A stretch of DNA of 64,000 nucleotides from Streptomyces sp. CA-278952. GTDB lineage: Bacteria; Actinomycetota; Actinomycetes; Streptomycetales; Streptomycetaceae. Below, in pieces: positions 57,339-60,647 of this stretch (positions are counted from its first letter, which is position 1; every line of letters starts with the position of its first letter). The stretch covers positions 5,766,001-5,830,000 of the forward strand of contig NZ_CP112880.1 of NCBI RefSeq assembly GCF_028747205.1. Reading direction: 5' to 3'. The notes beneath the pieces were generated by a model that saw nothing but the letters and a program-made list of their open reading frames with translations, did no database searches and was not told the origin of the DNA. Position numbers and translations under genes: made by a program.

Positions 57339-60300
57339 TCAGTGCCGCACCGCCGCCACCTCCGGTGGCAGGTCGTCCGGGAGCAGCAGACGCAGATCGT
57401 CCAGGCTCGGTGTGGACATCGCGCCGAGGCGGCCCGCCTGGCGCGTCATCATCGCCTCCAGGATCTGGCGGGCCGCCCGTGCGTTGCCGAAGGAGTGGTC
57501 GCGCGGCAGGGAGTCCACGTAGGCGTACAGCGCGGCGACCGTCTCCGGGGAGCAGTCGTACCCGTAGCCGGTGGCTTGCTGGGAGAGGATGTGCAACAGG
57601 TCGTCCGTGGAGTAGCTCTCGAACTCCACGGTGCGCGAGAACCGCGAGGCCAGGCCCGGGTTGGAGTCGAGGAAGCGGCGCATCTCGCGGGTGTAGCCGG
57701 CGGCGATGACCACGACCTCGTCGCGGTGGTCCTCCATCAGCTTCAGCAGTGTGTCGACCGCCTCCCGGCCGAAGTCGGAGGTCGCGCCCTCCGGCGTGAG
57801 CGTGTAGGCCTCGTCGACGAACAGCACACCGCCTATGGCGCGTTCGAAGGCGTCCTTGGTCAACTGTGCGGTGTGGCCCACGTACCGGCCGACCAGATCG
57901 GCCCGCGCCACCTCGACCAGCTGGCCCTTGGGCAGCACCCCGAGGGAGCGCAGCAGGTCCGCGTACAGCCGCGCGATGGTGGTCTTGCCCGTACCGGGAG
58001 GCCCGGAGAAGATGAGGTGGTTGCTGATCTTCGGGGTGGGCAGCCCGGCGGCCTTGCGCTGCTTGGTCGCGGTGAGGAGGTTGACCAGTGCGGTCACCTC
58101 GTTCTTGACCGCTGTGAGGCCGATCATGGAGTGCAGCTGGGCGAGGAGTTCCTCGGAGCCGGGGCCATCGTCCGCCGGTGTGCCCGCGTCGGGCGCCACG
58201 TCCTCGGGGAGCAGGAGGGCCAGGTCGCTCTCGGCGGGATTCTTCATGGAGGCGAACCGGGACGCCTGGCGGTCCACCATCTCCTCGAACACCCGGCGGG
58301 CCGCACGGCCGTTGCCGAACGTGGCGTCGCGCGGCATGCGCTCGTAGTGCCCGGCGAGCGCCTCGCGGGTCCGGGGGTCGAGCTCGTAGCGGTGGCCCAG
58401 GCACATGTTCTCCGTGATGGTCACCAGCTCGTCCACCGAGTAGTTGGCGAAGTCGATGGTGCGGGTGAACCGGGAGGACAGGCCCGGGTTGGAGGAGAGG
58501 AAGCTCGCCATCTCGCCGGTGTACCCGGCGGCGATCACGGCGACGTCGTCGCGGTGGTCCTCCATCAACTTCAGCAGCGTGTCGACCGCCTCCCGGCCGA
58601 AGTCGGCGCCGGAGCCCTTGCTGTCGGAGAGCAGGGTGTACGCCTCGTCGATGAACAGCACCCCGCCCAGCGCCTCGTTGAACGCCTCGGTGGTCTTGAT
58701 GGCCGTACCGCCGATCACCTGCGCGACCAGGTCGGCGCGGGAGACCTCCACGAGGTGCCCCGACCTGAGGACGCCGAGATCGGCCAGGATGCCGCCGTAC
58801 AGCCGGGCCACGGTGGTCTTGCCGGTGCCGGGCGGTCCGGAGAAGACGAGGTGGCGGCTGACCTGGGCGACCGGCATGCCGAGCTGGACGCGGCGCTGGT
58901 TCAGCTGATTCAGGTTGACCAGACTGCGCACCTGGCTCTTGACCTCGGCGAGGCCGACGAGGGATTCCAGCTCCTCCAGCGGCCCCTCGGGCTCCTTCTG
59001 CGCGGAGTCGGGGCCGCCGCCGGCGACATCCGGAGGCAGCGTGTCGCCCCAGGCGTCCGGGACCGCGTTGCCGGCGCTGTTGAGGCCCTCGATCGTGAGG
59101 CGTTCGTTGACCCGGGTCTGCCGTAGGCCCGCACCGCGGTTGTCGCGGACGGTGCAGTCGGCGACGGTGACGGGATCGGCGCTGTCGATCCTGATGCCGT
59201 CGCCGACGCTGCCGATGACCTGCGAGGAAGTGAGGGTGGCGCGGGAGCCGTTGGCGAGCAGGACGCCGTGGGCGCCGGAGTCGGTGATGTGGACGCGCAG
59301 GACGGTGAGTTCACCGCCGTTGTCCACCGTGATGCCGCCCGCCGCGGCGAACTCGACGGCGCAGTCCCGGATGGTGCCCCGCCCCTCCGTGCCGACGGAG
59401 AGGGTGGTGTCCCCGGCCGCTCTCATGACCGTGTCGCGGATGTCGGGGTTGCCGCCCGAGGCGATCCGTACCGCCGAACCGCCCGCGCGGTCGATCTCGC
59501 AGTGCTCCAGCCGGCCGCGCCCGTCCTCGGCCACCTCGACACCGTTGCCACCCGGAGAGGTGATCCGTACGCGGCGCAGCAGCGGGTCGGCTCCGGTGCG
59601 GATACGGACGGCGACCCCGGCCGCGTCGCTGACCAGCAGTTCGTCGAACTCGGCGGTCGAGTCCTCCTCCAGCAGGACGGCGCCGTTCGCGTCCGCGCAG
59701 TCGCGGACCGCGCAGCCGATCAGCGTGGGCGAGCTGGAGTCGATCACCCGTATCGCCGGGGCGGCCGCCGTGTCGAACTCGCAGCGCTGGAAGGTGCCCC
59801 GGGAGCGTTCGCTGACCACCAGGCCGCTGCCCTTGGTGCGGGAGGTACGGCAGTCGAGGAACTCGGGGTCGGCGTTCACGGCCAGCATGATGCCGGGGCC
59901 CGAGGTGTCGCTGACGGAGACGTTCTCCAGGGACGGGCGGGCGGAGCTGGTGATGTAGACGCCGACGGAGGTGTCGTGCACCGTGGTGCGCAGGACCCGG
60001 GTACCGCTGCGGCCCTCCAGCGCTATGGACGGCTTGTCCGTCCCGGAGATGTCGCAGTCCTCCACCAGGCCCTGGGCCTCGTCCGAGGTCAGCACGCCGT
60101 TGGCGCGCGCGTCGAGGATGCGGCAGTCCCGCACCGTCGTCCGGGCCTCCGCGCCGATGACGACGCCGGAGGTGCCGAGGTTCGATATGCGGCAGCCGGC
60201 TATGACGCTGCCCGTGGGGGCGGAGTCCACGACCCCGGCGCCCTTGGGGTTGCTGACCTGGCAGTCGCGCATGGCGACCGAGCCCGACTCCCGGGCCAGC

Positions 60301-60647
60301 ACGGCCGTCCAGCCGGAGCCGACGACCGTACAGCCGTCCATGGCGACCTGGCCGCGCGGGGCGTCGACCACCGGCAGGTCCTCGCTCCCGCCGCGCAGGG
60401 TGAGGTCGGTGAGCATGACGGCGTCGGCCACCAGGATGACGGCGGTGCCACGGCGCGGGCAGATCTCGACGCTGCCCGGCTCCCCGTCGGCGACGATGGT
60501 GACCCGCGTCCGGACCGTGAGGTTCTCCGGGTAGCGGCCGGGGTGCACCCGGATCACCGCACCCGTGCGTGCCTTGTCCAGGGCTTCGCCGATCGTCCGG
60601 AAGCTGTCCGGTTGGCCCGACCCGACCCTGAGCACTTGCCGTGACAC
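57339..60647 (-). CDS. Right-handed beta-helix / double AAA+ (EccA-like) fusion protein
   Basis: The protein has 1102 residues. GTG 60647 follows AAGGAGGAGG. Residues about 1-545 are a right-handed parallel beta-helix: many short repeats such as VRDCRILDARANGVLTSDEA and EHCEIDRAGGSAVRIASGG, of the NosD/pectate-lyase-like type. A linker then leads to two CbxX/CfqX AAA+ modules. Walker A sites are at about 599 (SGPPGTGKTTVARLYGGILA) and 879 (SGPPGTGKTTIARLYADLLR); Walker B at about 666 (GGVLFIDEAYTLLSDSKGSG) and 942 (GGVLFVDEAYTLTPEG). Both modules look complete. EccA ATPases act on type VII substrates, and mycosin and EccC genes are next to it, so a secretion-related unfoldase that recognises partners by its beta-helix is a fair guess. 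Confidence 0.92.
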   Translation of the reverse strand: MSRQVLRVGSGQPDSFRTIGEALDKARTGAVIRVHPGRYPENLTVRTRVTIVADGEPGSVEICPRRGTAVILVADAVMLTDLTLRGGSEDLPVVDAPRGQVAMDGCTVVGSGWTAVLARESGSVAMRDCQVSNPKGAGVVDSAPTGSVIAGCRISNLGTSGVVIGAEARTTVRDCRILDARANGVLTSDEAQGLVEDCDISGTDKPSIALEGRSGTRVLRTTVHDTSVGVYITSSARPSLENVSVSDTSGPGIMLAVNADPEFLDCRTSRTKGSGLVVSERSRGTFQRCEFDTAAAPAIRVIDSSSPTLIGCAVRDCADANGAVLLEEDSTAEFDELLVSDAAGVAVRIRTGADPLLRRVRITSPGGNGVEVAEDGRGRLEHCEIDRAGGSAVRIASGGNPDIRDTVMRAAGDTTLSVGTEGRGTIRDCAVEFAAAGGITVDNGGELTVLRVHITDSGAHGVLLANGSRATLTSSQVIGSVGDGIRIDSADPVTVADCTVRDNRGAGLRQTRVNERLTIEGLNSAGNAVPDAWGDTLPPDVAGGGPDSAQKEPEGPLEELESLVGLAEVKSQVRSLVNLNQLNQRRVQLGMPVAQVSRHLVFSGPPGTGKTTVARLYGGILADLGVLRSGHLVEVSRADLVAQVIGGTAIKTTEAFNEALGGVLFIDEAYTLLSDSKGSGADFGREAVDTLLKLMEDHRDDVAVIAAGYTGEMASFLSSNPGLSSRFTRTIDFANYSVDELVTITENMCLGHRYELDPRTREALAGHYERMPRDATFGNGRAARRVFEEMVDRQASRFASMKNPAESDLALLLPEDVAPDAGTPADDGPGSEELLAQLHSMIGLTAVKNEVTALVNLLTATKQRKAAGLPTPKISNHLIFSGPPGTGKTTIARLYADLLRSLGVLPKGQLVEVARADLVGRYVGHTAQLTKDAFERAIGGVLFVDEAYTLTPEGATSDFGREAVDTLLKLMEDHRDEVVVIAAGYTREMRRFLDSNPGLASRFSRTVEFESYSTDDLLHILSQQATGYGYDCSPETVAALYAYVDSLPRDHSFGNARAARQILEAMMTRQAGRLGAMSTPSLDDLRLLLPDDLPPEVAAVRH

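Follow-up and report, generated by a model that had tools for sequence, protein, structure and literature searches.

The 64,000-nucleotide stretch of the Streptomyces sp. CA-278952 genome analysed here (contig NZ_CP112880.1, positions 5,766,001 to 5,830,000; hereafter the window) carries on its minus strand, at 57339..60647, a coding sequence for a protein of 1102 residues (P0001), in which a beta-helix is followed by two AAA+ modules of CbxX type (AAA1 and AAA2), beside genes of a type VII secretion system (T7SS). A preliminary description had proposed this architecture, and the open reading frame, the Pfam matches, the guanine-plus-cytosine (GC) content of the codons and the predicted structure all agree with it. 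The GTG start of the fusion gene is preceded by a ribosome-binding site, AAGGAGGAGG (60655..60664, minus strand, read by eye), the third-position GC of the frame is 0.94, and all or nearly all rows in alignments of relatives keep the start Met; in these alignments, starts of locus-derived rows were chosen by a script and database rows kept their own. Pfam gives 187 bits to Beta_helix and recognizes two stretches each of AAA and AAA_lid_6. Residues ~5–525 (59073..60635, minus strand) constitute a right-handed parallel beta-helix according to the PF13229 profile match, the AlphaFold fold and the periodicity: since hydrophobic residues recur every 23 positions, a period reached by 0 of 1000 shuffles, the helix would have roughly 22 turns. 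Structure prediction, which had been suggested as a check, returned a beta-helix and two AAA modules. The whole protein (52 sequences) was modelled with a predicted local distance difference (pLDDT) of 88.3 and a predicted template modelling score (pTM) of 0.54, the linker between beta-helix and AAA1 being of low confidence, and the beta-helix modelled alone reached a pLDDT of 95.6 and a pTM of 0.91.

AAA1 occupies residues ~556–815 (58203..58982, minus strand) and AAA2 residues ~831–1090 (57378..58157, minus strand). Both are intact, as had been claimed: each keeps Walker A, Walker B (DE), sensor 1 (GY), the arginine finger (SRF) and sensor 2 (GNxR). AGY and FGNxRxxR, i.e., the sensor-1 GY and the sensor-2 arginine, occur in both modules and fit the CbxX clade, which the accessible part of a 2023 preprint (PMC10659427) defines by the GY Tyr at sensor 1, the sensor-2 arginine and an Asn 4 residues before the first arginine finger; in the fusion, the conserved Asn of NPGLxSRF stands 6 residues before the SRF Arg, against 4 in that text, whose way of counting may differ from ours. 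The two pore loops differ, V-I-G-G without an aromatic residue in AAA1 (Val644) and Y-V-G-H, as in CbbX, in AAA2 (Tyr922). Among the matches listed, there are at least 119 other relatives of 1095–1148 residues with at least 64% identity, including named Streptomyces proteins 95–96% identical, and the protein records name Streptomyces, Actinoallomurus and Actinomadura. Over 42 rows, mean column identity is 0.72 in the helix versus 0.85 and 0.82 in the motors; the greater variability of the helix might be that expected of a recognition part, or have other causes. An anti-phage defence role was considered and rejected, PADLOC giving weak generic hits inside the AAA parts (best 57 bits).

The mycosin and EccC neighbours reported for the fusion are real. 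The mycosin (MycP, 398 residues, 60864..62060, plus strand) is divergent from the fusion, and EccC (62269..64000, minus strand) is present in the window by its C-terminal half (EccCb), the whole protein having 1323 residues and extending past the window. Outward beyond EccC come EccD, EccB, two WXG100-size proteins, a 167-residue and a 1221-residue protein, a YbaB-like protein and a giant protein. EccCb scores 726 bits against its profile, EccD and EccB exceed their cut-offs, and the two WXG100-size proteins score 54 and 24.5 bits against WXG100 (cut-off 27.3, the second falling just under). The mycosin reaches 184 bits, below the profile cut-off of 278.75. Thus the locus holds the gene set of a type VIIa system (T7SSa), i.e., EccB, EccC, EccD, a mycosin and a WXG100 pair.

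The fusion follows one kind of EccC across the genus. Among 121 same-genus genomes, we found 39 copies of the fusion in 36 genomes (E <= 1e-125), and an EccC (E <= 1e-80) in at least 112 genomes among the matches listed; none of the nine genomes without a listed EccC is among the 36. On the contig of an EccC lie 36 of the 39 copies, at a distance of up to 7.2 kb for 35 and of 34 kb for one; the contigs of the other three measure 19950, 13363 and 4183 bases, and on two of these MycP neighbours the fusion. When the EccCs listed are ranked by likeness to that of the window, the best 39 match the 39 fusions genome for genome and in copy number (Fisher's p = 1.3e-31, genomes being treated as independent). 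The limit of 39 was set after viewing the list, and the EccC trees described below support it. The step from partners of intact fusions to those of fusions with a degenerate AAA2 is wide (745.6 to 637.7 bits), and the next one, from these to core EccCs, is small (618.1 to 609.4 bits), so that the assignment of the four degenerate partners depends on the trees. The core T7SS of the same genome (EccC at 1839051) has no fusion match nearby, and the fusion-bearing T7SS is patchy in the genus. The linkage with eccC, for which random association had been named as a refutation, is strong and not random: 39 fusions pair with 39 EccCs genome by genome. We consider it highly probable that the fusion is a dedicated component of this T7SS lineage. 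Its earlier attribution to streptomycete type VII secretion was right as to the T7SS locus and too broad in scope, the fusion belonging to one accessory lineage, not to the core system, and occurring in four more families. One copy (L048:8485-11792, genome G005) is read in two frames, of 446 and 740 codons, that overlap slightly; either the gene is broken or the assembly is in error.

EccC phylogeny gave the same picture. In a tree of 54 rows, 23 fusion-linked rows and three unclear ones (genomes with the fusion on another contig) constitute one clade (support 100/100), and all 28 no-fusion rows, including the core Streptomyces system, fall outside it; a long-branch warning concerned another part of the tree. 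Of 38 fetched EccC stretches, 27 went into this tree; the remaining 11 (L086, L090, L098, L099, L101–L104, L107, L109 and L117) had all been in an earlier tree, whose fusion clade of 22 rows (95/98) contained 18 linked rows, three unclear ones and one labelled as no-fusion (G136:C15), a genome that has the fusion on another contig of 4.2 kb. Among the matches listed, the double-motor form occurs in at least five families (f1, f3, f19, f20 and f39), four of them (f3, f19, f20 and f39) other families of the order or class; in family f3, the loci read show it only with a degenerate AAA2.

We had at one point concluded that there was no linkage outside Streptomyces, from 11 loci of families f19, f20 and f39 with no EccC within ~8–10 kb on either side. 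This was overturned by whole-genome searches, which placed an EccC 2–60 kb away on the fusion's contig in the eight genomes with a measurable distance: 2 kb for the second of two copies in G171, 14 kb in G203, 15 kb in G351, 32 kb in G229, 35 kb in G172, 43 kb in G225, 53 kb in G189 and 60 kb in G334. In the loci of these families that were inspected, the genes between fusion and EccC run mostly on one strand (gene calls are rough, from a GC-frame script). In two f19 loci (L155, L156), EccD, EccB, two Esx-size genes, substrate-like genes and the fusion follow each other on one strand, one gene of each Esx-size pair weakly matching the window's second WXG100 protein; the second G171 copy (L157) has the order EccC–MycP–fusion; and in an f20 genome (L158/L159), the fusion is on the same strand as EccB, two Esx-size genes and giant genes. 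In the other-family loci read, the fusion is mostly on the strand of EccB and the Esx-size genes. No canonical EccA was seen at the T7SS loci read of this lineage. Four f20 loci (L132–L135) have an Hsp70-like gene near the fusion on the opposite strand; the only one profiled (L132:10881-13175) encodes Hsp70 with a ricin-type lectin tail.

One group of fusions (L049–L053, L148, L149 and L119) has a degenerate AAA2. The GTGK[T/S] motif is missing after the first module in all eight, and in the six proteins readable by pattern the Walker A Lys is replaced by Arg. Their EccCs form a sub-clade with 100/100 support inside the fusion clade, and the core T7SS genes lie on the fusion's strand. In L050 and L053, the order on one strand is EccC–EccD–EccB, a gene of 849–1035 residues, the fusion and two WXG100 genes; L148 and L149 have the same order with one Ecc gene uncalled. 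The 849–1035-residue gene of these four loci has no Pfam hit. In L051 and L052, ~2.7 kb before the fusion contains no called gene, and the L049 contig starts near the fusion. Two WXG100-size genes directly follow the fusion in five of seven loci, one being called in L051 and L052. No MycP was found in these loci by tblastn, which may reflect divergence.

Relatives with other architectures served as controls. A beta-helix paralogue of ~800 residues with a single AAA module has one CbxX module of the same clade as those of the fusion; that of the same genome lies at L008:7436-9982 (genome 7675447-7677801). We read 27 stretches with this form (L008, L054–L079), picked for having a hit, from the same genome, 23 same-genus genomes and three f3 genomes. 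None of these stretches, mostly of ~20 kb, contains an EccC like that of the window, L077 giving a weak 31% match, and on the 11 contigs listing both, no listed EccC comes closer than 407 kb to the single-AAA paralogue. The single-AAA paralogues being unlinked, T7SS linkage is a property of the double-motor form. A protein with the EccA N-domain PF21545 (62 bits), TPR and one CbxX module is encoded elsewhere in the genome (L009:6613-8751, near 6995744), on a 15 kb stretch where no T7SS gene of the window's kind was noted. Three f19 stretches (L136, L137 and L141) encode another tandem CbxX protein, of ~780–870 residues, with an N-terminus that by eye resembles several membrane helices; in the trees, its modules fall with EccA and outside the beta-helix clade.

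The relationships of the motors were established with two AAA trees. AAA1, AAA2 and the module of the single form constitute one clade apart from EccA (100/100 in the first tree, 84/96 in the second), and the EccA side is supported at 100/100 and 100/98. Across families, AAA1 (98/92) and AAA2 (95/94) each group together in the second tree, so that either the doubling predates the split of these forms or transfer has spread it. The module of the single form branches as sister of AAA1, at a modest 87/76. A placement of CbbX inside AAA2 in the first tree, where it was a single row with a branch of 3.1, was discarded: when the tree was rebuilt with three close relatives and one distant one, CbbX fell outside the beta-helix clade, with a weakly supported root (29/3). 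Among solved proteins, CbbX matches the AAA part best, by sequence and by structure (42% identity), and AAA2 scores 208 bits against solved CbbX versus 181 against solved EccA1.

The DLVGQYIGHT pore loop of CbbX aligns with DLVGRYVGHT in AAA2, and AAA1 has DLVAQVIGGT at this place. The pore tyrosine of CbbX has a role in Rubisco activation. In 45 intact T7-linked proteins, the first pattern match has Val or Ile at the pore residue in 37, Phe in three and Tyr in five, one of these five (YVGH) probably being the AAA2 of a protein whose AAA1 was unmatched. In AAA2, the residue is aromatic in all 42 readable proteins of the 45 (41 Tyr, one Trp). The single form has His in 24 readable proteins of 27, the degenerate group has Tyr (three of seven) or Ile (four of seven) in AAA1, family f19 has Tyr in both modules (6/6), and families f20 and f39 have His in AAA1 and Tyr in AAA2 (5/5). 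Thus the pore asymmetry is strong in the window's group and not universal.

The same T7SS cluster is found on plasmids. It is carried by linear plasmids of 185 and 626 kb, and 38 Streptomyces plasmid records match the fusion protein, 36 records overall covering at least 80% of it. In public annotation, two Streptomyces plasmids carry the same set, i.e., S8 peptidase, EccCa, EccD, EccB and WXG100, together with a 'type VII secretion system-associated protein' and an 'AAWKG family protein'; YbaB and lonely Cys are annotated only on the first. At the window's locus, beyond its end, the giant protein (L007:13291-19500, at least 2070 residues) has a 'lonely Cys' domain (524 bits) and a weak WXG100-like domain, and the 1221-residue protein (L007:8648-12313) is rich in Lys, Glu and Ala, the plasmid gene at the same place being annotated as 'AAWKG family'. 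Judged by sequence, these two proteins are likely T7 effectors. The window's mycosin keeps its triad motifs and lacks the oxyanion Asn, a motif of subtilases, which is missing in all 11 aligned mycosins of the lineage (the window's and those of L040–L045, L048, L118, L145 and L146); moreover, the mycosins of L043, L045 and L048 are without Asp, His and Ser, and that of L118 is without Asp. These decaying mycosins may be structural caps and not proteases. Directly downstream of the fusion (55887-57294) lie an HTH_31/DUF5753 regulator and a divergent HATPase_c_2 protein, an arrangement which we take to be common in Streptomyces; the pair is probably unrelated to secretion.

What could such a protein do for secretion? 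We lean towards the fusion being a dedicated cytosolic AAA+ ATPase that would remodel substrates for a distinct, monophyletic branch of T7SSa. The accessible part of PMC10659427 describes CbbX and SpoVK as dedicated chaperones, with a possible role of their N-domains in recruiting the target, and it is by analogy with them that we propose the helix as cargo holder. The beta-helix would dock cargo, which may be WXG100-type proteins, AAWKG or 'lonely Cys' effectors, or else a chaperone of these. The motors would form one or more hexameric rings, as CbbX and p97 do. AAA2, with its CbbX-type tyrosine pore loop, would pull on a flexible tail of the cargo, and AAA1, in which the aromatic residue is mostly lost, would mainly burn ATP, hold the ring or regulate. 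The pull would free a chaperone or partly unfold the cargo, which would then be handed transport-ready to EccC. For this mechanism as a whole, from docking through threading by AAA2 to the hand-over, we see an even chance. More generally, the fusion is probably a dedicated helper, so far undescribed, that readies proteins for export, and the different substrate recognition suggested for it is plausible.

The alternative that survives best is that the fusion remodels or assembles the secretion machine itself, with the EccC ring, MycP or else the membrane complex as its target. That it goes with one EccC clade fits this, the fusion adjoins MycP in several loci, and CbbX-type ATPases are described, in the part of PMC10659427 we could consult, as acting on one dedicated target. 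However, the fusion is the last gene after effector-like genes in L155, L156 and L158/L159, and it directly precedes the WXG100 pair in five of seven degenerate loci, which fits cargo better; we regard a machine target as unlikely.

Another explanation makes the fusion a true EccA, in which a beta-helix has replaced the TPR domain and the AAA part has been doubled, and which does the job that EccA does in mycobacteria. The beta-helix does stand where EccA has its TPR domain, as had been pointed out, the gene is at a T7SS, and the whole protein passes the cut-off of the NCBIfam EccA model TIGR03922 (475.5 versus 466.65 bits). Nevertheless, it passes because the scores of the two modules sum: alone they reach 249.6 and 234.3 bits, below a cut-off that was set for the whole 557-position model, so that the missing N-terminal half itself costs score, and the PF21545-bearing protein of L009 reaches just 316 bits. 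The SpoVK model (TIGR02881) scores higher on the whole fusion (512.9 versus a cut-off of 422.95, each module at ~260 bits being below it). Neither PF21545 nor TPR is found in the fusion among 19 Pfam families at E <= 0.001, its N-terminal half being Beta_helix, while an EccA relative with PF21545 sits elsewhere in the genome. The AAA trees separate the two with the support given above, and AAA2 is nearer to solved CbbX than to solved EccA1. The label 'EccA-like' thus does not hold as a family assignment: by N-domain, module number and AAA tree, the fusion stands outside the EccA family, and we find it rather improbable that it is EccA in another form. It probably works like an EccA/CbbX-type chaperone, to judge by analogy.

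It has also to be asked whether the beta-helix binds a carbohydrate or a cell-wall precursor and couples secretion to envelope building, as proposed for SpoVK-MurG. A sequence search of solved chains gave no match to the helix at E <= 0.001. Most of its structural look-alikes are sugar-active, phage or surface proteins, which makes carbohydrate a possible ligand. We take this likeness as a shared fold only, which proves no function, and the first Foldseek match is the tail protein of phage Andhra; the gene tracks the T7SS, and the loci read contained no conspicuous envelope gene. This idea has little in its favour. Finally, passive linkage, i.e., a gene riding the same mobile cluster with no role in secretion, would fit the plasmids and the patchy distribution in the genus and is scarcely credible, given a link kept across the EccC clade in five families despite rearranged gene orders, the match of 39 fusions to 39 EccCs in 121 genomes, and the unlinked single paralogues.

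Several observations weigh against the cargo-remodelling ATPase that we favour. Besides the likeness of the helix to sugar-active and phage proteins, the monomer model, at a pTM of 0.54, is uninformative on ring assembly. The distance between fusion and EccC can be 2–60 kb in families f19, f20 and f39, where the two need not be adjacent; the 103 kb contig that carries the fusion in G308 has no EccC, and fusion and EccC are on different contigs in G249, G317, G250, G290, G309 and G335. The order of the sub-branches differs among trees, the degenerate group joining f20/f39 by EccC (92/82), f19 by AAA1 in the first AAA tree (98/88) and the window's group by AAA1 in the second (86/68), and thus fusion and EccC need not share strict descent. 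AAA1 has Tyr in 4/45 and Phe in 3/45 intact forms, f19 has Tyr in both modules, and AAA2 of the degenerate group is dead; because of these exceptions, threading by AAA2 cannot be general. A bolder version of the proposal would make the lineage a separate T7SSa subtype of five families, borne by chromosomes as well as Streptomyces plasmids, with an obligate double-motor unfoldase and a beta-helix receptor: a loader of two rings, AAA2 threading the cargo and AAA1 gripping weakly, with AAA2 a pseudo-ATPase and AAA1 the sole drive in one sub-branch. We put this forward as doubtful.

If this bolder version holds, unfolding or chaperone release would be a regular step before EccC in these systems. 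As a one-for-one partner of a whole T7SS lineage in genetically workable Streptomyces, it offers a clean test of whether an AAA+ motor prepares cargo for EccC. As a genomic marker, it divides actinomycete T7SS between the core system and this lineage. Its locus also points to candidate effectors, the lonely Cys and AAWKG proteins. The literature search returned, in the portions of the sources available, no description of a double-module beta-helix protein at a T7SS. Only PMC10659427 comes near: it mentions a beta-helix in EccA in one clause, and the words Streptomyces and tandem do not occur in its main text. What is new is a T7SSa lineage with its own double-motor ATPase, chaperones of CbxX type being already known.

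Compared with known systems, the fusion shares with EccA (TIGR03922, PF21545) a CbxX-type AAA+ ATPase at a T7SS, with the sensor-1 GY and AAA_lid_6; EccA, however, has a TPR-type N-domain and one AAA module, whereas the fusion has a beta-helix and two modules of a separate AAA clade. CbbX, the red-type Rubisco activase (PDB 3SYK, 3SYL and 3ZUH), resembles AAA2 in its Tyr-hydrophobic-Gly-His pore loop and differs in having one module, no beta-helix and Rubisco as target, and in its place outside the beta-helix clade, under a weakly supported root. SpoVK belongs to the same higher-order AAA clade as the fusion's modules; it has a short N-domain and acts in Firmicute sporulation, according to the consulted part of PMC10659427. 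The accessible sections of a 2024 survey (PMC11217815) call EccA 'of unknown function' and associate it with all ESX systems except ESX-4, and those of PMC4791881 list ESX-4 clusters in Streptomycetales and other orders and describe eccA as a later addition. The locus of the fusion resembles T7SSa/ESX-4-like systems of actinomycetes in its EccB, EccC, EccD, mycosin and WXG100 pair; in contrast to ESX-4, described in that survey without EccA, its branch has a double-motor ATPase of its own and a mycosin that is often degenerate.

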